Shown piece after piece: positions 5,720 to 62,300 of a DNA stretch of 64,000 nt; position 1 is the first letter of the stretch, and every line of letters begins with the position of its first letter. A model generated the notes under the pieces. The model worked only from the letters and a program-made list of their open reading frames with translations. It was not told the DNA's origin and did no database searches. Source of the stretch: Acidobacteriota bacterium (GTDB lineage: Bacteria; Acidobacteriota; Thermoanaerobaculia; Gp7-AA8; JAHWKK01); the NCBI GenBank assembly GCA_019347945.1, contig JAHWKK010000018.1:1-64000 (forward strand), read 5' to 3'. A program made the position numbers and the translations under genes.

Positions 5720-6394
5720 GGATGTAAGGATTTAAGGATTTGAGGATTCGAGCGTCAGTCGTCGCTCACCCACCTCCTCTCCTCGCATCCTCATATCCTT
5801 ATCCTCATCATGGCTCTTCTCTCTTCAGGATCTCCCGTGCCTTGCGCTCCAGCGTGTCGATGCGTTTCACGATCGAGCTTGCGCGTGTCAGCCAGCACCG
5901 GGAGGGCGACGCGCCTGCCGAGCCGCACCGTATCGAGCTCGCGTGATGTCACCCAGCACCGGCGAGGGGCCGGCCTCCTGCCGAGGCGACGACCATTGGC
6001 GAATGTTGTCTGCGCGAAGCGACGGGCACGGACGAATGTTTGTTCTCGCGAAAACCCTCACCTCGTCATCCTGAGCGAGTGACCGGCGCCTTGCGACGGT
6101 GAATCGGAAATGACACCCGCTGAGTGCGGAAACAACCGAACTCGCGTACTCAAACCAACGTCATCCTGAGCGGGCGGTCGGCGGGCAGGCGAAGGACCTC
6201 GCAGGTTGGGACATCAGACCAAGCGAAGCGCTGCAGGAGGGCCGAAGTCCAACAATTTCGTGGTCGTTTCATTAGGAGCCGCCGAAGGACGGCGAAGGAT
6301 CTGGGGGCGGATCGTGATTCGAAGTGGCGGGTTGATGCAAGGATGACTCACGAGCCCCCGCCAACCTAAAATCCTCATATCCTGTATCCCTTCT
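5720..6394. repeat. Repeat-rich gap between fdhD and the VOC remnant
   Basis: No intact gene. It contains heptamer arrays of GGATTTA/GGATATGAGG type (5719-5760 and 5785-5810), a dispersed GGGAGGGCGACGCGCC-type palindrome (about 5895-5990), an inverted copy of the GAGCAAACATTCGTCC composite (about 6003-6075), a CGTCATCCTGAGCGGG element with a CCTCGCAGGTTGGGACA tail (about 6149-6235), and an inverted AGATCCTTCGCC module (about 6270-6305). The modules match those at 2.3, 21 and 61.6 kb. Confidence 0.7.
5808..5885 (-). pseudogene. C-terminal remnant resembling the DUF305 gene at 12.7 kb
   Basis: On the minus strand a frame reads [18 protein letters not shown] then stop. The intact DUF305 protein at 12662-13228 ends [18 protein letters not shown], so the ERKAREILK tail is shared. 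Upstream, the frame is broken by a dispersed palindromic repeat. It looks like the last ~20 codons of a lost paralogue; recombination of the intact gene's tail into the repeat is the alternative. Confidence 0.4.
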
Positions 6395-12456: not shown

Positions 12457-12661
12457 TCTAGCGCGCGATTGAAACAGGAAACCGCTGGCGAGCCGCGCTG
12501 CGTGCTTCACGCGCCATCATTAAGGTAGACATTACGCAAGCTCGTGGGCGCAGGGTGCGCCGCAGTCAATAAGAGCACCGCCACGCGATCCGCGAACCTC
12601 CAACCTCAAACCTCCAACGTTCCTCTTCTCTTTACACTCTTCACTCTTCACTCTTCACTCT
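12457..12661. repeat. Repeat cluster: GCGCAGGGTGCGCC hairpin, ACCTCCA heptamers, TCACTCTTC array
   Basis: From left to right: a GGCGCAGGGTGCGCCGCAGTC element (about 12547-12567), heptamers of ACCTCCA/ACCTCAA type (about 12597-12620), and a GAAGAGTGA array in minus orientation running into the DUF305 stop (about 12640-12680). No gene. Confidence 0.7.
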
Positions 12662-13228
12662 TCACTCTTCACTCTTCAGAATCTCGCGTGCCTTGCGCTC
12701 CATCTCGGGCGTCAGTTCCGCTGAGCGCGGCGGCAGCTCCGTCGTTCCCCGCTCTCCGCTCTGCTCGATGTCCTCGATGAGGAGTTTCATCTCGGCGATC
12801 TCACGGACCTGCGCCTCGATGATCTTGTCCGCCAGTTCGCGAACCCGAGGATCGCTGATACTCGCCTTGCGCCCGTTGTTGATGGCGATCGAGTGGTGCG
12901 GGATCATCGACTCCATGAACCGGATGTCGTCGATCACGGCCTGTGACCGGTTCGCCCACAGCAGGATGACTGCGAGCACCCCGGCTACGACCACGACCGC
13001 GACCTTCGTCCCGATCCCTTTGTACATCGGCCACATGAACGCGAGCATCACGACGGCCATGATGCATCCCATGGCCAGCGACGCGATCAATCGATTCAGA
13101 CTGAACGTCGCGTGATCGGCTGAATATACGAGCTGGTACATCAGAAAGAACATGATGACCGTCGAGGTGATGATCATCCCGGCGAATCGGCCCCAGCTCA
13201 TTCCCGTCTTTTCATTCTTCTGATCCAT
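12662..13228 (-). CDS. DUF305 membrane protein
   Basis: A 188-aa protein. Three hydrophobic helices ([54 protein letters not shown]) are followed by a DUF305 domain with the motif [14 protein letters not shown], and [23 protein letters not shown]305 proteins are often copper- or metal-associated ferritin-like four-helix bundles; the HH pair is the likely metal site. ATG 13228 is chosen over the longer frame because GGGAG lies 6-7 nt upstream and the extension runs into repeat DNA. The last codons (ILKSEE-stop) are formed by the GAAGAGTGA array. Confidence 0.85.
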
Positions 13229-13564
13229 GTCGGCTCCCTGATCTCTGGCGAATTGAATTTGAGAGGCACGGCAGCAAGAACATCGCCAGTGACGGGTCGC
13301 GGAGTCGTCCGAGACAGAATGTTCGTCGAGGGACATTCTGGTGGAATGCAACGGGGCGGCTCGGCAGGAGCCTCGCCCTCCCAGTGATAGTGGACATCGC
13401 GCAAGCGCGTGGCGGTGCGGCGCACGGATGCGGCGCTTTCACCCTGGTCACGTAAAGGCGGCGCAGGGGTGCGCCGCAGTCCATGGGGCCGTAACCTCAA
13501 ACCTCCAACTTCCAACCTCCCACCCTCTTCTCTCACTCTTCACCCTTCCGTTCGCGACTCGGAT
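13229..13564. repeat. Repeat cluster between DUF305 and kinase genes
   Basis: Contains a GGCGGCTCGGCAGGAGCC-type palindrome (about 13355-13390) followed by GCGCAAGCGCGTGGC, a GGCGCAGGGGTGCGCC hairpin (about 13460-13480), ACCTCCA heptamers (about 13495-13522) and a TCACTCTTC array (about 13528-13550) just past the kinase stop. Between about 13230 and 13340 I see nothing beyond the DUF305 leader. Confidence 0.65.
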
Positions 13565-15703: not shown

Positions 15704-16153
15704 CTGGTCAGGAGACTATAAGGCGGGAGTTGCAACGACACAATGCTCACTCCAACATCCTCGAACGCCGCTTCGACGGATCGATCATATACTTTGGCGT
15801 CTCCTGATGTACGCTCCCGACCTCTCCGGGGCGAGCCTCTGGCGAGCCGCGAGCTGGCGGGACTGAACATCCCGGACCGGGAGGGCGAGGCTCCTGCCGA
15901 GCCGCACGGTCACGAGATGGCGCAATGTCCCCATCACCGCGACGGCGACCGCGGATCGCCACGTGCCGGTTGGAAACCGGCGGAACGGCCGGTTGAAAAC
16001 CGGCGCTACAAAGGGCGATCTCTGGCGAGCCGGCGATCCTCCAACCTCCAACCTCCAACCTCCAACCCTCTTCTTCACTCTTCACTCTTCACTCTTCACT
16101 CTTCTCTTCTCCCGGCTATACTTCCGATCGACACTTCACGACGGAGGACAACC
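15704..16153. repeat. Divergent intergenic region packed with repeats
   Basis: Between the kinase and the S9 peptidase. Holds three variants of the GGGCGAGGCTCCTGCCGAGCC family (about 15815-15920), a GTTGGAAACCGGCGGAACGG motif with a second GTTGAAAACCGGCGCTAC copy (about 15970-16010), ACCTCCA heptamers (about 16035-16070) and a TCACTCTTC array (about 16073-16106). The array here is upstream of a gene, not at a 3' end, unlike most others. Confidence 0.7.
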
Positions 16154-18082: not shown

Positions 18083-18347
18083 AACGCGCCCGGATCGTAC
18101 CGCAGGCTTCGCCGACGAACGCAGGCTTCCAGCCCGCGCATGTAGCGCCGGTGCTCGTCTCTCCGATCAGCCCGCGTCAGCGGGCGACAGATCTTAGCCC
18201 CGGCTTCAGCCGGGGGACAGGAGCTCGTTCCCAAAAATCAGTCTCGAGCCCGCGTCAGCGGGCGACAGAGCACCGTCACGAACTTGCGCAATTTTCCCTA
18301 CCACCACGCCTCAAACCTCCAACCATCTTCCTTTCACTCTTCACTCT
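18083..18347. repeat. Repeat cluster between convergent S9 peptidase and DUF5694 genes
   Basis: Contains a CGCAGGCTTCCAGCCCGC-type palindrome (about 18100-18140), two copies of an AGCCCGCGTCAGCGGGCGACAGA hairpin-like element (about 18168-18192 and 18248-18272) with a CCCGGCTTCAGCCGGGG hairpin between, ACCTCCAA heptamers and a TCACTCTTC array ending in the DUF5694 stop. No gene. Confidence 0.65.
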
Positions 18348-19193
18348 TCACTCTTCACTCTTCCCACTGAGCTCCGCGAGCTTGCGCAACCGAACCCCGG
18401 GGTTGCTCTCGAACGCGTATTGCAGCCATCCCAGATGCCCCGCACCGTAGATGACGAGCACGCGCTCGTTCGGAGAGTCGACGAGCTGCACGATATTGCT
18501 GTAGATACGCATGTTGCGTCTGAACCAGTCGGAAACCAGATCGGCGCCGGCCCAGTCCCATGGTTCCCCGAGCTCCGCGAGCCGGAAATACGGGCCCACG
18601 TCCTCGGCGACCCGCTCGTCTGAATTCATGTAGAGCAGGGTCTCGAGGACCGTATGGGAGGCGAGATACGCGCTGAATGCCTCGACTCTCCCGCCCGTCT
18701 CTTCCTGCAATGCGTCGAGCTCGTCTGTTCTGCCGGTCGCCTGTGCGAACTTGACGAGACGGGGGAATGGGAACTCGCCGTCGACATCCACCGGGTATAT
18801 GGTCTCGTGCCCGAGCTCCTTCGCGAGGCGGAAACCGAGTTGCTCGACCTCGTTTCGCGTGAGCTCGCGCTCACCGGCAACGTAGTCGGCGTACGCCTCC
18901 TGGACGGTGCCCCGGCTGAAACGGGCCTCCACCGCGATCTTCGTCGGCCGGAACTTCTCGAGCACGTCAATGACCTCCCTGATCTCGGCCTGACGCCTGG
19001 GCGAAAGCACGTCATCGGCCTCGGTGTTGAAGACGTCGCGTCCGGGATTGTCCATGTGGTAGACACCGAGCACCAGCACCTCGGGTTTCTGTTCGGGTGC
19101 CGGTTGTGCGAAGAGAGAGAGTGAGACGAAAGCCGCCAGACCGATCGCGGCCATGGTGGCCGCAGGTCGCATTTCGAGGATTTTCTGCACCAT
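18348..19193 (-). CDS. DUF5694-domain secreted protein (TraB/ChaN-like fold suspected)
   Basis: A 281-aa protein with an N-terminal signal-like helix (AATMAAIGLAAFVSLSLFAQ). The mature part begins VLVLGVYHMDNPGRDVFN and continues with RPTKIAVEARFSRGTVQEAY, a D/E-rich region, and ends VLVIYGAGHLGWLQYAFESN. The GxxHxxNPG and GAGHLGWL motifs are features of DUF5694 and resemble TraB/GumN-type proteins; the function is not established. I moved the start to ATG 19193 because GGGAGGAG sits 6 nt upstream. The end LSGKSEE-stop is formed by the GAAGAGTGA array. Confidence 0.75.
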   Translation of the reverse strand: MVQKILEMRPAATMAAIGLAAFVSLSLFAQPAPEQKPEVLVLGVYHMDNPGRDVFNTEADDVLSPRRQAEIREVIDVLEKFRPTKIAVEARFSRGTVQEAYADYVAGERELTRNEVEQLGFRLAKELGHETIYPVDVDGEFPFPRLVKFAQATGRTDELDALQEETGGRVEAFSAYLASHTVLETLLYMNSDERVAEDVGPYFRLAELGEPWDWAGADLVSDWFRRNMRIYSNIVQLVDSPNERVLVIYGAGHLGWLQYAFESNPGVRLRKLAELSGKSEE

Positions 19194-19444
19194 GCACGCT
19201 CCTCCCTGGATCAGTATGGACAAAACTTTCATCCCTGCGCCGCATTCACCCCTTCACCTTCACTACGCCTGCCGCGCCGCCCAGTTACGACTTGCGCGCC
19301 TGCCGGGACGGCGAGCCTCTGGCGAGCCGCGGTCCTCGAACCTCAAACCTCCAACCTTTTACCATCACCGGGAGGGCGAGGCGCCTGCCGAGCCCGCGAC
19401 CTCCAACCTCCAACCTCAAACCCTCTTCTTTCACTCTTCCCTCT
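19194..19444. repeat. Repeat cluster between DUF5694 and fic
   Basis: Alternating units: GGCGAGCCTCTGGCGAGCC (about 19300-19330), ACCTCAAACCTCCAACC heptamers, GGGAGGGCGAGGCGCC palindrome (about 19370-19395), heptamers again, then a TCACTCTTC array entering the fic stop. This is the clearest example of the composite order palindrome-heptamer-9-mer. Confidence 0.7.
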
Positions 19445-20497
19445 TCACTCTTCACTCTTCTTTCGCCACCGTGCGCCCCTTCCCCTCCCGATCACCTCCA
19501 GCACTCCCTGGTCGCGAAGGCTCTGGAGCACGTTACGGATCGTCTCACGGCTGACGTCGGGGCACTCGGTCTCGATCTCGCTGATTCCGAACGGGATCAT
19601 CTTTCGCTCGACTGCCTCACGGACCCGTTGCGACTTCGAGCCTTTGAATGATTCGACCGAGCCAACGCGCTCTTCGAAGATCGTGTACGCACGGTTCAGA
19701 ACACCCCAGAAGTAATCATTCCACGGACGCCAGTCGTGTTTTCCCTCATGCCATGCCCGCGAGCTCATCTCCAGAGTCTCGTAGTACGACTCACGCGATT
19801 CCTCGAAAAGCCGCTCGAGGCTGACGTAGCGCCCCACGTCGTAGCCGGCGTGGTAGAGGAGAAGCAGCGTCAGAAGTCTGGCCACGCGACCGTTCCCGTC
19901 GCGGAACGGATGAATGCACAGAAAGTCGAGGACCGTCAGCGGAATCAGCACGAGAGGATCGTGAGCGCGAGCGAGCGCATCGCGATAGCGTCGAACCATC
20001 TCCTCCATCGTCTCGGGAGTCATCGCCGCGGCTACGGCTCGAAATCGAATCCGGGTAATCTCACCCCTCGGGTTCCGCTCGACGATCTCGTTGTCGACAT
20101 TCTTCCATTTCCCCCCCTCCTCGGGAAGGTAGGAGTAAATCGTCTGGTGAAGCTGACGGATGATGTTCACGGAGAACGGCATGTCGCGCCGCGCCTGATG
20201 AATCAGCTCGAGCGCGTCGCGGTACCCCGCGATCTCCTGCTCGGAACGGTTGCGCGGCGTCGTGGAGTGCCCGACCAGCGCTTCGAGCCGCGCCTTCGGT
20301 GCCGTGATCCCCTCCAGGCGGTTGGATGAATCCGTCGACTCGACGATCGCAACAGTCCGCAGCGCCTCGAGCGTCTCCGGCCGCTGCTTCTCATACAGCT
20401 CCTGCTTTCCTCGGTATTCGCCGAGCGCACGAAGGGTCGACACCTGTGCCGGCGTGAAAGAGAGGTCCTGGAGATACCCGGGGCTGAGTGAGTGCAT
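19445..20497 (-). CDS. Fic-family protein (predicted AMP transferase) with C-terminal winged helix
   Basis: A 350-aa protein. The Fic core carries HPFRDGNGRVAR (196-207), so the catalytic histidine and the nucleotide-binding loop are intact. Upstream, SNRLEG (58-63) fits the inhibitory (S/T)xxxE(G/N) helix, so this is a self-inhibited class II type. The C-terminal ~80 residues (SQRVREAVERKMIPFG, VSRETIRNVLQSLRDQGVLE) form a winged helix as in many Fic proteins thought to bind their own promoters. A 27-bp dyad lies just upstream. Target proteins unknown. The tail ...WRKKSEE-stop comes from the 9-mer repeat. Confidence 0.88.
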   Translation of the reverse strand: MHSLSPGYLQDLSFTPAQVSTLRALGEYRGKQELYEKQRPETLEALRTVAIVESTDSSNRLEGITAPKARLEALVGHSTTPRNRSEQEIAGYRDALELIHQARRDMPFSVNIIRQLHQTIYSYLPEEGGKWKNVDNEIVERNPRGEITRIRFRAVAAAMTPETMEEMVRRYRDALARAHDPLVLIPLTVLDFLCIHPFRDGNGRVARLLTLLLLYHAGYDVGRYVSLERLFEESRESYYETLEMSSRAWHEGKHDWRPWNDYFWGVLNRAYTIFEERVGSVESFKGSKSQRVREAVERKMIPFGISEIETECPDVSRETIRNVLQSLRDQGVLEVIGRGRGARWRKKSEE

Positions 20498-20534: not shown

Positions 20535-20595
20535 CTATCAGAAACGATTACCCTCTTTTCTGCTGCTGCGGCAAGTAGTTTCAGGAGAGAAAGTA

Positions 20596-20687
20596 CCAAC
20601 CTGTGAGGTCCCTTCGGTTTCCCCCACCCATCACCCCTCAGGGCAGGCTCCTCGCTTACCCGCCCGACCGCCCGCTCGGGATGACGT
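20596..20687 (-). repeat. Left inverted-repeat arm flanking the GIY-YIG gene
   Basis: A 92-bp segment that, read on the minus strand, begins ACGTCATCCCGAGCGGG and ends CACAGGTTGG. It matches 21227-21318 on the plus strand at about 85 of 92 positions by eye, with the mismatches clustered in a G-rich stretch near one end. Confidence 0.8.
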
Positions 20688-20717
20688 GGGAAAAGGAATA
20701 GCGAGTGTGAAAACTCT

Positions 20718-21041
20718 TCAGAGCACTCGAAACTCCATCCCGGCACTTGCATGAGCCGCCTGACCCGAAAGGTCCCGCAACCCGGGGTTGATCGATCGAA
20801 CGAGAGCTTCCTTGCGTGAGCGCCGCCAGCCCTTGATTTGCTTTTCGCGTTCGATCGCCCGCCTGACGCTCGAATGGCACTCGAACCAGACGAGCTTCGA
20901 GACGCGATACCTTGCGGTGAACCCATCAGCCTCTCCGGCACGATGTTCAGCAAGCCGACGGCACAGATCGTTGGTGACGCCTGTATAGAGGGCCACCCCG
21001 CTTTCGCTCATCAGAATGTATACGATGAACATGCGTTGCAT
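20718..21041 (-). CDS. GIY-YIG nuclease-superfamily protein (COG2827-like)
   Basis: A 107-aa protein. The GIY-YIG core reads FIVYILMSESGVALYTGVTN, followed by DLCRRLAEHRAGEADGFTAR, VWFECHSSVRRAIEREKQIK and GWRRSRKEALVRSINP. Tyrosines, arginine R28 and the glutamate in AIEREK are in the expected places. Such single-domain members are presumed endonucleases but few have been tested. The gene is bracketed by 92-bp inverted repeats of a family that also occurs singly at 6.15 kb and in direct repeats downstream. ATG 21032 is an alternative start. Confidence 0.85.
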   Translation of the reverse strand: MQRMFIVYILMSESGVALYTGVTNDLCRRLAEHRAGEADGFTARYRVSKLVWFECHSSVRRAIEREKQIKGWRRSRKEALVRSINPGLRDLSGQAAHASAGMEFRVL

Positions 21042-21047
21042 CCGACG

Positions 21048-21250
21048 ACGATACCTCGGCGGTGTGTTGCTCTACAGTACGTAGAACGCACACTTCCGCC
21101 CTCGCATGCTCAAACCGACGTCATCCCGAGCGGGCGGGTGGTTGGGCAAGCGAGGGACGATACCGCGGCGGTGTGTTGCTCTACAGTACTCAGAACGCAC
21201 ACTTCCGCCCTCGCATACTCAAACCGACGTCATCCCGAGCGGGTGGGTGG
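21048..21250 (+). repeat. Tandem duplication of the GIY-YIG upstream region
   Basis: Two adjacent ~100-bp units, each starting GACGATACC and containing CGGCGGTGTGTTGCTCTACA and GAACGCACACTTCCGCCCTC, and ending in the first part of the CGTCATCCCGAGCGGG repeat. The first unit stops at GCAAGCGAGG and is followed directly by the second. Confidence 0.75.
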
Positions 21251-21620
21251 TTGGGCAAGCGAGGAGCCTGCCCTGAGGGGTGATGGGTGGGGGAAACCGA
21301 AGGGACCTCGCAGGTTGGGACAGCCAGACCAGCGTAGCGCTGAGAAATTGCGACACTCGTCATCCTGCACGCCGGTTGAATGCAGAAATGACAACCGGAG
21401 CCCAGAACACTCCGGATCCGCATACTCAAACCGACGTCATCCCGAGCGGGTGGGTGGTTGGGCAAGCGAGGAGCCTGCCCTGAGGGGTGAGGGTGGGGGA
21501 CACCGAAGGGACCTCGCAGGTTGGGACAGCCAGACCAGGCGTAGCCCTGAGAAATTGCGACAGTCGTCATCCTGCACGCCGGTTGAATGCAGAAAATGAC
21601 AACCGGAGCCCAGAACACTC
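21215..21620 (+). repeat. Two ~200-bp direct repeats of the CGTCATCCCGAGCGGG element
   Basis: Units at about 21215-21412 and 21418-21617 are nearly identical. Each runs from ACTCAAACCGACGTCATCCC through CTGCCCTGAGGGGTGA, GACCTCGCAGGTTGGGACAG and CTGAGAAATTGCGACA to CCGGAGCCCAGAACACTCC. The first contains the right arm (21227-21318) of the inverted repeat around the GIY-YIG gene. The second ends ~40 bp before the UPF0158 gene. Confidence 0.8.
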
Positions 21621-21656: not shown

Positions 21657-22181
21657 ATGTCCGACCCGAGAAACCCGGAAAAGCGCCCTCCTCGCGAAGA
21701 AGACCCTTACACCCCGGACGCGAAGGTCTCGCTCTCCCGGGTCGTCGGAGAGATGGGCGTGGTCAACGAACACATCACTCTCTATCTGAACCGCAGCACC
21801 GGCGAGACTTTCTTCGTCAGCGACGAAATCGACGTCGACGCGGAGGACTTCGATGACGACGAGCTTTCGTCACTGCCGGATTGGGAGCGGGAAACGATCG
21901 AGAAATCGAAAGAAGTTCTCGAAAGCGACGACTGGATCGAGCTCCCGAGTCAGTTCGATCTCGATGAGTATCGAGCGATGACGGAGTTCGCGCAAGGGCA
22001 GCACCCGGGCGTGAGCCGGACGCTCGGCGACGCCCTGCACGGCAGCGGCGCCTTCCGCCGTTTCAAGCGCGCGATCGACGAGTTCGGCGTGAGGGAGGAG
22101 TGGTTCGAGTTTCGGGAAGGATGGATCGCCGACGCGGTTCGCCGCGTTCTCGAGAGGCACCGAATCCCGTTCCGCCGCTAA
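21657..22181 (+). CDS. UPF0158-family protein
   Basis: A 174-aa acidic cytoplasmic protein. Recognisable blocks are YLNRSTGETFFVSDEI, LPSQFDLDEYRAMTEFA, the central GSGAFRRFKRAIDEFGVREE and the C-terminal WFEFREGWIADAVRRVLERH. The GxFRRFKxxI..WxxF pattern is the UPF0158 hallmark. Function unknown. The stop is 2 bp before the next start, so the two genes are co-transcribed and probably coupled. Confidence 0.8.
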   Translation: MSDPRNPEKRPPREEDPYTPDAKVSLSRVVGEMGVVNEHITLYLNRSTGETFFVSDEIDVDAEDFDDDELSSLPDWERETIEKSKEVLESDDWIELPSQFDLDEYRAMTEFAQGQHPGVSRTLGDALHGSGAFRRFKRAIDEFGVREEWFEFREGWIADAVRRVLERHRIPFRR

Positions 22182-22681: not shown

Positions 22682-23240
22682 CAGGATCCCACCCAGGATC
22701 GCCACGCGCCGGCCGTAACGTGGGCTTCAGCCTGCCGTGTCACGGACGAAATGCGGGGCGCGGGACGCGGGACAAGCTTGCGCGATGAAACATTTCACCG
22801 GGAGGGCGAGGCTCCTGCCGAGCCGCACGGTCACGAGATGGCGCAATGTCTCCCATCACCGGGAGGGCGAGCCTCTGGCGAGCCGCGAGCTGGCGGAACC
22901 AAACATCCCCGACCGGGAGGGCGAAGCTCCTGCTGAGCCGCACCCTCGCCGGATGGCAGAAAGCTCGTTTTTAGTGCAAAGATCGAGAGTTTGACCGAAA
23001 CAGAATGGTTTTAGGTGACATTCAGGTGGAACGCAACGGGGCGGCTCGGCAGGAGCCTCGCCCTCCCGGCAATCGCGGACATCGCGCAAGCTCGTGGCAC
23101 TAGGCGGGCACGAGGCGGCCGTATCGCCGGCTTCCAGCCCGCACCAAACTTCACGCGCGACAGTGCGACCTCCCGGGTTCTCCACGCGACCCGGCCCGCC
23201 TTCGCCATCCCTTCACCCACGACCGGTTTAAACTTCCCTC
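22682..23240. repeat. Long repeat-only gap
   Basis: No gene. It carries five or more copies of the GGGCGAGGCTCCTGCCGAGCC / GGGCGAGCCTCTGGCGAGCC family (about 22798-22825, 22858-22890, 22912-22945, 23035-23070 reversed), a GGCTTCAGCCTGCCGTGTC palindrome (about 22722-22742), a GGCTTCCAGCCCGC copy (about 23130), and a segment CATTCAGGTGGAACGCAACG (about 23020) that also occurs beside DUF305 at about 13335. Confidence 0.7.
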
Positions 23241-24247: not shown

Positions 24248-24619
24248 GCGGCCGCTTCAGAATATCCCATATCGGAGCATCAGTTCCTTCATCTTTCATC
24301 CTCTGAATTCGCCACGCTCCGAACGTACCGCAGGCTTCCAGCCTGCCGTGTCGCGGGCTTCCAGCCCCCGCTTCTCGACCACTCCCTGAAACCGGCACCC
24401 TTTCCAGACCGGCCGGGAGGGCGAGGCGCCTGCCGAGCCGCACCGTCACGAACCTTGCGCGATGTCCTCCGAGCGGCTTCGTGCTCTTTGGACTGCGGCG
24501 CACCCTGCGCCGCCTTCACCACGTCTCGAACTTGCGCGCCTGCCGTACCGCAGGCTTCCAGCCTGCCGTGTCGCGGGCTGCCAGCCCGCACAACCTCGGC
24601 CCTCCGCCGACATCCGTCG
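24248..24619. repeat. Duplicated leader plus dispersed palindromes
   Basis: After the duplicated isomerase leader (to about 24310) come ACCGCAGGCTTCCAGCCTGC palindromes (about 24330-24370 and 24547-24595), a GGGAGGGCGAGGCGCC element (about 24415-24445), and a GGACTGCGGCGCACCCTGCG hairpin (about 24490-24512). No gene. Confidence 0.7.
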
Positions 24620-25305: not shown

Positions 25306-25432
25306 GCGGCCGCCTCAGAATACCCCATATCGGAGCATCAGTTCCTTCAGCCTTTCATCTTCTGAATTCGCCACGCGCCCCCCGTACCTCCGGCTTCCAG
25401 TCTGCCGTGTCGCGGGCTTCCAGCCCGCCCGA
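25306..25432. repeat. Isomerase leader and GCTTCCAGCCCGCC palindromes
   Basis: The isomerase upstream segment (to about 25370) is the parent of the copy at 24248-24310. A pair of GGCTTCCAGTCTGCC and GGCTTCCAGCCCGCC elements (about 25390-25428) follows and reaches the abiEii stop. Confidence 0.6.
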
Positions 25433-34182: not shown

Positions 34183-34625
34183 GTAAACGTGAATCTAGCA
34201 GAACGACAGACGCAGAAGTTCATGCGCGAACCGACCAAAACAGGAACCTTGCCCTGAGAGTCATGGTCTTTGGACTGCGGCGCACCCTTGCGCCGCTTTG
34301 AAGACTGCCGTGCATCCCTGCGCCGCTCTCACCCATCACCCTGATTCGCCATGCGCCGCCCGTACCGCAGGCTTCCAGCCTGCCGTAGCGCAGGCTTCCA
34401 GCCTGCCGTGTCGCGGGCGTCCCGCCCGCGCATGTAGCGCCGGTTTCATTAGCCTGCCCTGAGCGAGCGCAGCGAGCCGAAGGGGCACGTTGCGATCCGC
34501 CATCCTTGGACTGCGGCGCACCCTTGCGCCGCCTTGGACTGCGGCGCACCCCTGCGCCGCTTTCACATAGGGCTTTTCTCGTAAGGATCGAATCGAAGAT
34601 GACCAGGTCGCCCTGCCCGACTCCC
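34183..34625. repeat. Repeat cluster at the island edge
   Basis: No gene. Contains three copies of the GGACTGCGGCGCACCCTTGC hairpin (about 34267-34300, 34507-34535, 34536-34562), three ACCGCAGGCTTCCAGCCTGC-type units (about 34362-34425) and a GCCTGCCCTGAGCGAGCGCA element (about 34452-34480). Dispersed repeats are not seen again until about 61.0 kb. Confidence 0.7.
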
Positions 34626-60985: not shown

Positions 60986-61500
60986 GGATCTCTTCCCCTC
61001 GAGGCGTTGGTCTTTTTTGAATGCGAATCAGAGCCGGCGCCTCAACCGGTCTCCGTCTCCGCTTGGTGAATGCCGAGATTGTAGTACATCGGGTGTGGTG
61101 GGAGCGGGGACATCGCGCAAGTTCGTGAGGGGGCTCGGCGTGGGGAAAGGTTGGAGGTTTGAGGTTGGAGGTTGGAGGAACGCGGCTCGCCGAAGGTGAA
61201 GCCATGCCAGTGATAGGAGACAGTGCGCAAGTTCGTGACGGGGCGGCTCGGCAGGCGCCTCGCCCTCCCGCTGGCGGCGAGGCATCGCGCGAGTTCGTAA
61301 CGGGGCGCGGGCTGGAAGCCCGCCACACGGCAGGCTGGAAGCCTGCGCTACGGTGCGAGGTGCGAAGGATGAGCGGGCGAGTCGTCGGCTCGGCCCCGAG
61401 CGTGAAGCGTGACGAGAGGGAAGCGATGGCGGGAGAATTTCGAGATGCGATCCGGGGGATCGACGCGGTGGCGTCCGGTCATGTGTGAGATGAAATGGGT
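60986..61500. repeat. Repeat cluster returning after the island
   Basis: ACCTCCA heptamers in reverse orientation (about 61150-61182), GGGGCGGCTCGGCAGGCGCC palindrome (about 61238-61270), GCGCGGGCTGGAAGCCCGCC and GGCAGGCTGGAAGCCTGCGC (about 61302-61350). No gene. Confidence 0.65.
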
Positions 61501-61539: not shown

Positions 61540-61780
61540 GTTGGAGGTATGAGGTTGAGGAGACAGGAGCCAGGATGCAGGAGCCAGGATGCAGGATTCA
61601 GGATTCGGATTTTGAGAGTCCTCGAGCGCAAAACGTCTGAGCACGAGCCGCCGCCAGATCCTTCGCCGTCCTTCGGCGGCTCCAGGATGACGAAGGGTGA
61701 GTTTTCGCGAGAGTAGACATTCGAGCACGATCGTCACGGCACGCAAACAGATCAGTCGTCATTGTGCGGATCGCACATGC
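61540..61780. repeat. Heptamer array and composite repeat
   Basis: TCAGGAT/CAGGAGC heptamers (about 61562-61612), the AGATCCTTCGCCGTCC module (61656-61690), a GCGAGAGTAGACATTCG version of the 45-bp element (about 61697-61745) and GTCATTGTGCGG. The same order of modules occurs at 2296-2443. Confidence 0.65.
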
Positions 61781-62022: not shown

Positions 62023-62300
62023 GGACACGGGCTCGGGACGCGGGATGCGAGACGCGGGGGAAGAGGAGGGATTCGTCGGAAGCGGGATGGGGGACATTGC
62101 GCAAGCTCGAGACGGGGCGGCTCGGCAGGCGCCTTGCCCTCCCGGTGAGGCAGGTTGCCGGTGGCCGGTGGCCGGTTGCCGGTTCGAGAGTCTGCGACGC
62201 CACCCACAGCGATCCGGTGAAGCGCGTCCCTCGCCCCGCATTTCCTCGCCGAGCGCGAGACGGATCGCCGGTTTGACCTGGCTCGTCCGGCGCATCTATC
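62023..62300. repeat. Repeat cluster upstream of the SEC-C gene
   Basis: GGGACGCGGGATGCGAGACG tandem-like units (about 62030-62060), a GGGGCGGCTCGGCAGGCGCC palindrome (about 62113-62140), and a GTTGCCGGTGGCCGGTGGCC heptamer-like array (about 62154-62182). No gene. Confidence 0.6.

Follow-up and report, generated by a model that had tools for sequence, protein, structure and literature searches.

A small gene for a GIY-YIG nuclease that stands between inverted copies of a dispersed repeat raises the question of whether enzyme and repeat belong together, and whether the one moves the other. We analyzed this locus within a window of 64,000 nucleotides, by which we mean the whole stretch of DNA presented here. 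The gene occupies positions 20718–21041 on the minus strand and encodes an orphan single-domain protein of 107 amino acids, which matches PF01541 over residues 5–77 with 58 bits. It lies between two inverted arms, as the preliminary description of this DNA had recognized. The arms had been given as 92 bp long with about 85 of 92 positions identical; the inverted arrangement stands, but this length is slightly short, and the arms (inverted repeat I1) measure 98 nt each, are 91% complementary and enclose 533 nt. The left arm (20593–20690, minus strand) is located downstream of the gene, and its CGTC tag at 20683–20686, read on the minus strand, faces the gene. The right arm (21224–21321, plus strand) is located upstream of the gene with its CGTC tag at 21228.

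The described tandem duplication of the leader was also recovered. A first 109-nt copy with a truncated REP head (21047–21155, plus strand; CGTC at 21119) is followed, at 95% identity, by a second copy (21156–21264, plus strand; direct repeat D1) that continues into the full right arm. Direct repeats of about 200 bp had been noted downstream of the gene along the window, and we found them with a period of 206–208: the segment 21332–21388 recurs at 21539–21595 and the segment 21285–21332 at 21491–21538. This region contains a second full downstream REP copy (21419–21537, plus strand), which is a 207-nt direct repeat of the right arm and 98% identical to our 120-nt query. It also contains two copies (21332–21388 and 21539–21595, plus strand; direct repeat D2, 96% identity) of a 57-nt spacer module with GTCATCCTGCA..TGCAGAAATGAC, a GTCAT/ATGAC palindrome. 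A 174-aa acidic ORF (21657–22181) without a Pfam or NCBIfam match adjoins the repeat cluster.

The repeat is not confined to the vicinity of the gene. A gene-less copy at 6064–6235 (plus strand) consists of a GTCATCCTGAGC hairpin module (tag at 6065) followed by a CGTC-REP at 6159–6235 with its tag at 6159, where a lone copy had previously been placed near 6149–6235. Related hairpin copies are located on the minus strand at 2289–2331 (CGTCATCCTGAGCCGCCGAAGGACGGCGAAGGATCTGG; tag end 2331, inverted pair I21) and at 61633–61691 (CGTCATCCTGGAGCCGCCGAAGGACGGCGAAGGATCTGG; tag end 61691, inverted pair I14). The source genome comprises 3.72 Mb in 49 contigs, and its GIY-YIG genes are the one orphan and UvrC. 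A BLAST search with the 120-nt repeat unit (query 21212–21331) gave at least 50 genomic matches. Repeat copy numbers were obtained by sequence-pattern searches, in which exact CGTCATCCYGAGC occurred 148 times in the source genome (79+69), compared with 0 for a reversed-pattern control. Many of the genomic copies are embedded in a longer composite with additional GTCATCCTGAGC and GAAGGATC modules.

To which family does the repeat belong? A survey published in 2013 (Di Nocera 2013, PMC3733652) took an unpaired CGTC end (also TGTC or CCTC) and a stem beginning with AT as the definition of CGTC repeats, and found most of their doublets to be head-to-head. The superfamily takes in dRS3 of Neisseria as well as RPE-4 and RPE-6 of Rickettsia. 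According to the same survey, CGTC-REPs 'apparently lack a dedicated transposase', and no tyrosine transposase was found flanked by CGTC units. Judged by the match of tag and stem, the window repeat is a CGTC-tagged REP. The terminal CGTC tag is present in the window arms (CGTCATCCCGAGC), and the flanking repeats of other taxa carry CGTC, TGTC or CCTC. The AT-starting stem of 8–9 bp holds family-wide, with extra stem pairs, i.e. those beyond the pairs that the detector itself requires, in 77, 86 and 106 of 139 cases compared with shuffled means of 37, 45 and 56. The window arms themselves are a poor example of this stem (ATCCC/GGGAC with a long loop), and as single-stranded DNA they fold no better than shuffles (z 0.43 and 0.54). 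The locus thus shares with the superfamily the tag, the AT-first stem and the outward-tag doublets, and exact classic forms (e.g. CGTCATTCCCGCGAAAGCGGGAATCCA) stand beside many homologues, whereas the window repeat is a long-loop variant ending in GGGACCT where the superfamily has GGGATCCA. A short loop of 4–5 nt and a CCA tail are present in most flanking REPs of Proteobacteria and Nitrospirota; the window repeat has neither, its loop being long and its tail CCT. A further difference is the GIY-YIG gene adjoining the repeats here, whereas PMC3733652 reported no dedicated enzyme. In four species from the 2013 CGTC list, the gene adjoins its own CGTC-type repeat. As a side observation, the 2.17-Mb sequence NZ_CP119140.1 is catalogued as a plasmid of Neisseria gonorrhoeae, but judging by its size it appears to be a chromosome.

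A pairing reminiscent of REPs and their RAYTs, with a GIY-YIG enzyme instead, had been proposed from the window. To test this link, we applied a strict REP detector to 182 loci of many phyla; it requires GTCAT and three further bases, then a loop of up to 70, the complement, and A(T/C)C. A looser detector scored 178 of the 182 loci as flanked with more background, and the strict figures are preferred here. In the phylum of the source genome, 42 of 46 homologues have a strict REP hairpin within 350 bp, 33 of them on both sides. REP density there is 2.8–3.5 per kb beside the gene, compared with mostly 0.03–0.4 per kb at a distance of 0.5 to 4 kb. We then turned to 80 homologues that were picked by protein alone from named genomes of other phyla (Proteobacteria, Nitrospirota, Omnitrophota, Patescibacteria, Planctomycetota, Calditrichota, Cyanobacteria, Chloroflexi and others). 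Here 74 genes are flanked, 55 of them on both sides and 52 with outward tags, and GTCGT variants are present at several of the unflanked loci. A motif-free de novo search for inverted repeats agrees with the picture given by the strict detector.

Since REPs occupy intergenic DNA of these genomes at high density, they might gather in any intergenic space, and a small gene would then look flanked by coincidence. Indeed, at least one side is REP-flanked in 47 of 252 control ORFs, taken as the other large ORFs of the same loci. However, a strict CGTC-REP within 250 bp on both sides was found for 113 of 176 GIY-YIG genes (64%) and for only 2 of the 252 control ORFs (0.8%; OR 224, p-value of 2e-54). 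Left and right REP types moreover match within a gene and not between paralogs, the REPs are biased in orientation at 101 of 117 loci, and other small nuclease genes of the same genomes are unflanked by CGTC-REPs. Coincidence was rejected on the basis of the same-locus controls and is hardly credible. Inverted flanking beyond chance, which had been suggested as a check, is thus found inside and outside the phylum, and across the sequences compared the pairing of gene and REP is almost certainly real and general.

Is the pairing a property of small nuclease genes at large? Among genes of other GIY-YIG subfamilies in the same phylum, a CGTC-REP is present on either side of 3 of 25 and on both sides of 0 of 25 (0/5; 3/20 and 0/20), and in alphaproteobacteria it stands beside only 1 of 28 DUF559 nuclease genes. 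A different candidate for the moving enzyme is an HUH Y1 (RAYT/IS200) transposase, which would mobilize the CGTC-REPs with the GIY-YIG gene as a passenger. The source genome does have eight Y1_Tnp genes, but inspection of all eight revealed no CGTC-REP within 1.5 kb, and on this ground RAYT/Y1 mobilization was rejected; the survey result on tyrosine transposases also speaks against it, and we consider it very improbable. Two of the eight Y1_Tnp genes (L273, C8; and L274, C5) have inverted repeats of their own, GTCGAGCCCGC..GCGGGCGACAG, which are unrelated to the CGTC repeat. Given the same-locus ORF, other-subfamily, DUF559 and Y1 controls, the link holds specifically for the GIY-YIG subfamily considered here. 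We found no earlier report of a REP pairing with a GIY-YIG nuclease in the open-access literature: a search for GIY-YIG with 'repetitive extragenic palindromic' returned no open-access text, preprints and most subscription journals lying outside its scope, and none of the papers citing PMC3733652 appears, by title and abstract, to concern such a pairing.

Next, we analyzed how gene and REPs are arranged. An outward REP upstream of the gene and its inverse downstream were found at 101 of the 117 loci flanked on both sides, with a median unit of 425 bp. As in an insertion sequence or MITE, the ends of the unit are terminal inverted repeats, here formed by the REPs. Away from the gene, gene-less pairs were FR in 29 cases, RF in 7 and of the same orientation in 12, and among the close opposite REP pairs listed for Afipia 28 of 28 are head-to-head with outward tags (hand count). 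The orientation of REP, gene and inverted REP therefore matches that of the gene-less REP doublets. Ten loci have a full doublet on either side of the gene (FR|FR), and so do Azospirillum lipoferum and the L211 gene of Afipia. In the window, the arm tags face the gene, which is the minority layout and would fit the form with a doublet on each side minus the outer halves.

Empty sites in close strains had been named as a further check, and one was found for the gene and repeat unit. In A. lipoferum 4B (L165), a unit of REPs and gene of about 530 bp is located between sufB and sufC. In A. oryzae, A. ramasamyi and strain B510, sufB and sufC are adjacent, with no gene and no REP, and the flanks are 94–95% identical. 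In Shinella sp. PSBB067 (L177), a unit with a REP type of its own has entered this gap independently. Based on the empty site in the relatives and the Shinella insertion, insertion of the gene and REP unit is well supported. No target-site duplication is evident at the sufB/sufC insertion, where the flanks have diverged, and the unit contains no known transposase domain. Two different GIY-YIG units and a DUF559 gene (Sphingomonas parapaucimobilis, L178) have thus been inserted in the sufB/sufC gap by independent events, which makes it look like a hot spot for insertions.

Comparisons for REPs alone gave no comparable case. In the collinear Azospirillum comparison, which spans 50 kb, the REPs at the gene are the only ones of the A. 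lipoferum type, and no clean REP-only empty site emerged from 200 kb compared between two genomes of 89% identity. Genomes G155 and G233 (L253–L272) differ by REP-bearing intergenic indels of about 70–460 bp, among which tandem arrays (e.g. CTCGTCGTTGCAGTGGCC) also occur. As tandem repeats obscure the indel boundaries in this pair, we do not claim REP-only empty sites. Between S. meliloti and Sinorhizobium K101, the gene is present in both and the REP block alone differs.

These arrangements bear on the possibility of a homing-like selfish gene, in which the nuclease would cut REP sites and have its own gene copied in, the REPs being landing sites that spread by other means. In favor of this reading, a GIY-YIG domain is a typical feature of homing endonucleases, the usual place of the gene is between an outward REP and an inverted REP, as if inserted in a doublet, and a genome can have several paralogs (10 in G441). 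Yet genes are few and REPs many, and ten loci have a complete doublet on each side. The A. lipoferum unit came with two doublets into a site that is free of REPs in the relatives, so there was no homing into a resident REP there. The protein shares the catalytic core residues with homing endonucleases of the I-TevI type but consists of the core domain only; there is no intron and no separate DNA-binding domain, and a multicopy inverted repeat stands at the flanks. Altogether, we regard homing as unlikely.

We also compared the numbers of genes and repeats, which the preliminary description had expected to track each other. Gene presence and repeat abundance are associated, but the relation is not strict. 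The source genome has 1 gene and 148 repeats, and Afipia has 5 genes and at least 135 repeats. In the source phylum, the gene is present in 13 of 18 repeat-rich genomes compared with 43 of 297 overall (OR 21.6, p-value of 1e-8, genome size uncontrolled). Similarly, at least three pattern copies occur in 20 of 68 gene-bearing and 9 of 172 gene-less alphaproteobacterial genomes (OR 7.5, p-value of 1.3e-6, genome size uncontrolled); the pattern searches detect some REP types only. With a more sensitive search, two of nine nominally gene-less alphaproteobacteria (G399 and G502) turned out to have the orphan gene. After renewed searches of REP-bearing genomes in both groups, 12 of 15 have UvrC only (e.g. 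G067 with 31 copies, G163 with 24, and G094 and G554 with 23 each), and REPs therefore exist without a present-day gene. Some of these gene-less genomes are congeneric with gene bearers (G094 and G163 belong to the genus of G155, G202 and G233), which is consistent with loss of the gene and survival of the repeats.

If the protein acts on the repeat, the two might be expected to match each other. In genomes with several paralogs, such as Afipia with five genes and G441 with ten, a separate REP type surrounds each gene. Upstream and downstream REPs have a similarity of 0.66 when they flank one and the same gene, and of 0.26 when they belong to different paralogs within a genome (permutation p-value of 2e-4). 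Protein and REP distances are concordant, with a Spearman coefficient of 0.34 against a permutation sd of 0.03, and the concordance holds at a constant genome pair (p-value of 5e-4). REP stem identity rises with protein identity, from 0.56 at 35–45% to 0.88 above 65%. At a protein identity of at least 60%, the nearest protein also has the nearest REP in 14 of 19 cases, compared with 5.2 by chance. Protein and repeat thus diverge together.

What could the enzyme do? The catalytic residues Y8, Y19, G21, R29, H33, E66 and N85 (window numbering) are 99–100% conserved among 177 homologues, from which an active nuclease is predicted. The protein is a bare catalytic domain of about 95–107 aa without a separate DNA-binding domain, and the window protein matches no NCBIfam family. 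The AlphaFold model (pLDDT 88, pTM 0.82) has as its nearest PDB structure the UPF0213 protein BH0048 (1zg2), followed by Slx1. The UPF0213/YhbQ proteins, with BH0048 and EF2693 (1ywl) as the closest solved structures, share the small single-domain fold. They differ in that UPF0213-like genes of the same phylum are flanked by REPs on both sides in 0 of 25 cases, and that most REP-associated members share NPxWxDL near the C-terminus, the window protein having L for W. Slx1 is a structure-specific nuclease for branched DNA. The window protein shares its predicted fold (TM 0.52–0.57, normalized to the query) but lacks the zinc-binding/RING domain and the Slx4 partner, and it is bacterial and linked to repeats. 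Because of the Slx1-like predicted fold, a REP in hairpin or cruciform form is a plausible substrate.

The same likeness would suit a domesticated enzyme, which resolves REP cruciforms or hairpins in a role like that of Slx1 and is retained beside REPs without mobilizing them. The conserved catalytic residues agree with this as well, and the co-specificity of gene and repeat suits any direct relation between enzyme and substrate. Several results point the other way. The gene is patchily present, in 87 of 297 genomes of the phylum (E ≤ 1e-5) and 68 of 240 alphaproteobacteria, and the unit has inserted into an operon. Five loci (L036, L084, L091, L097 and L133) have in-frame stops in the GIY-YIG match, and some gene copies thus look decayed. 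Together with the separate REP types of separate paralogs, these features look selfish, and a housekeeping enzyme acting in trans has no need of a position between REPs of its own type. We consider such a role improbable.

Instead, we somewhat favor the view that the GIY-YIG nuclease mobilizes CGTC-REPs in trans and is the putative partner enzyme of the family. The orphan nuclease and the surrounding CGTC-REPs would then form one two-part genetic element, by analogy with the REPtrons of RAYTs. In the simplest reading, the gene-bearing unit would be the autonomous form, and the scattered REPs and doublets its non-autonomous derivatives. The nuclease would recognize the REP hairpin or cruciform in a structure-selective manner and place a nick in or close to the CGTC tag, after which the repair or replication machinery of the host would copy the REP to other sites. 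GIY-YIG enzymes cut by hydrolysis and form no covalent intermediate, unlike the HUH RAYTs, and rejoining must therefore rely on the host. A wider reading, that the CGTC-REPs found across bacteria derive as non-autonomous forms from an unrecognized minimal mobile element whose sole gene is a GIY-YIG nuclease, seems to us evenly balanced between right and wrong.

The likeness to RAYT (TnpA_REP) and its GTAG-REPs, known as REPtrons and REPINs, extends to a low-copy gene inside inverted REPs, many gene-less REPs or doublets, and one gene type per REP type. The differences are an enzyme of the GIY-YIG type (PF01541 only) where RAYT is a Y1 HUH transposase, and a CGTC-type tag with an AT-starting stem in place of GTAG. 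The system is REPtron-like but no REPtron, because an HUH transposase and a GTAG tag were looked for and are lacking. Which enzyme mobilizes the widespread CGTC-REPs, Neisseria dRS3 and Rickettsia RPEs included, was left open by PMC3733652, and a co-varying nuclease partner makes this question testable with one small protein and one oligonucleotide. Should the proposal hold, a GIY-YIG enzyme would act like a transposase through a chemistry that is not known to serve this end, with a hydrolytic, structure-selective nuclease and host repair filling the role that HUH RAYTs have for GTAG-REPs. A common gene, annotated only as 'GIY-YIG nuclease family protein', would gain a function as well.

Other repeats were observed in the course of the analysis. 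Alphaproteobacterial genes for DUF559 (PF04480) nuclease-like proteins (L281–L310 and L178) have a palindrome of another kind, CCCTCTCCC..GGGAGAGGG (TTGGGGTGAGGG), in inverted copies at their flanks, and palindrome flanking exceeds the 95% control in 16 of 28 of them. DUF559 with CCCTCTCCC..GGGAGAGGG is possibly a second nuclease-REP pairing, and DUF559 with this third palindrome family may be a further case of the nuclease-repeat principle. The window itself contains another dispersed family around CCGGGAGGGCGAGGCTCCTGCCGAGCCGC (5896–5962, 13325–13386, 15829–15941, 22796–22957, 23010–23071, 61212–61273 and 62086–62147). A dispersed repeat with paired GGCTTCCAGCCTGCC palindromes, starting with GTAG in some copies, is found at 24293–24367, 24513–24587, 25352–25426, 34330–34427 and 61305–61359. 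Finally, arrays of the 7-mer TTCACTC occupy several intergenic sites (2479–2532, 12619–12686, 16060–16127, 18319–18386 and 19416–19483).
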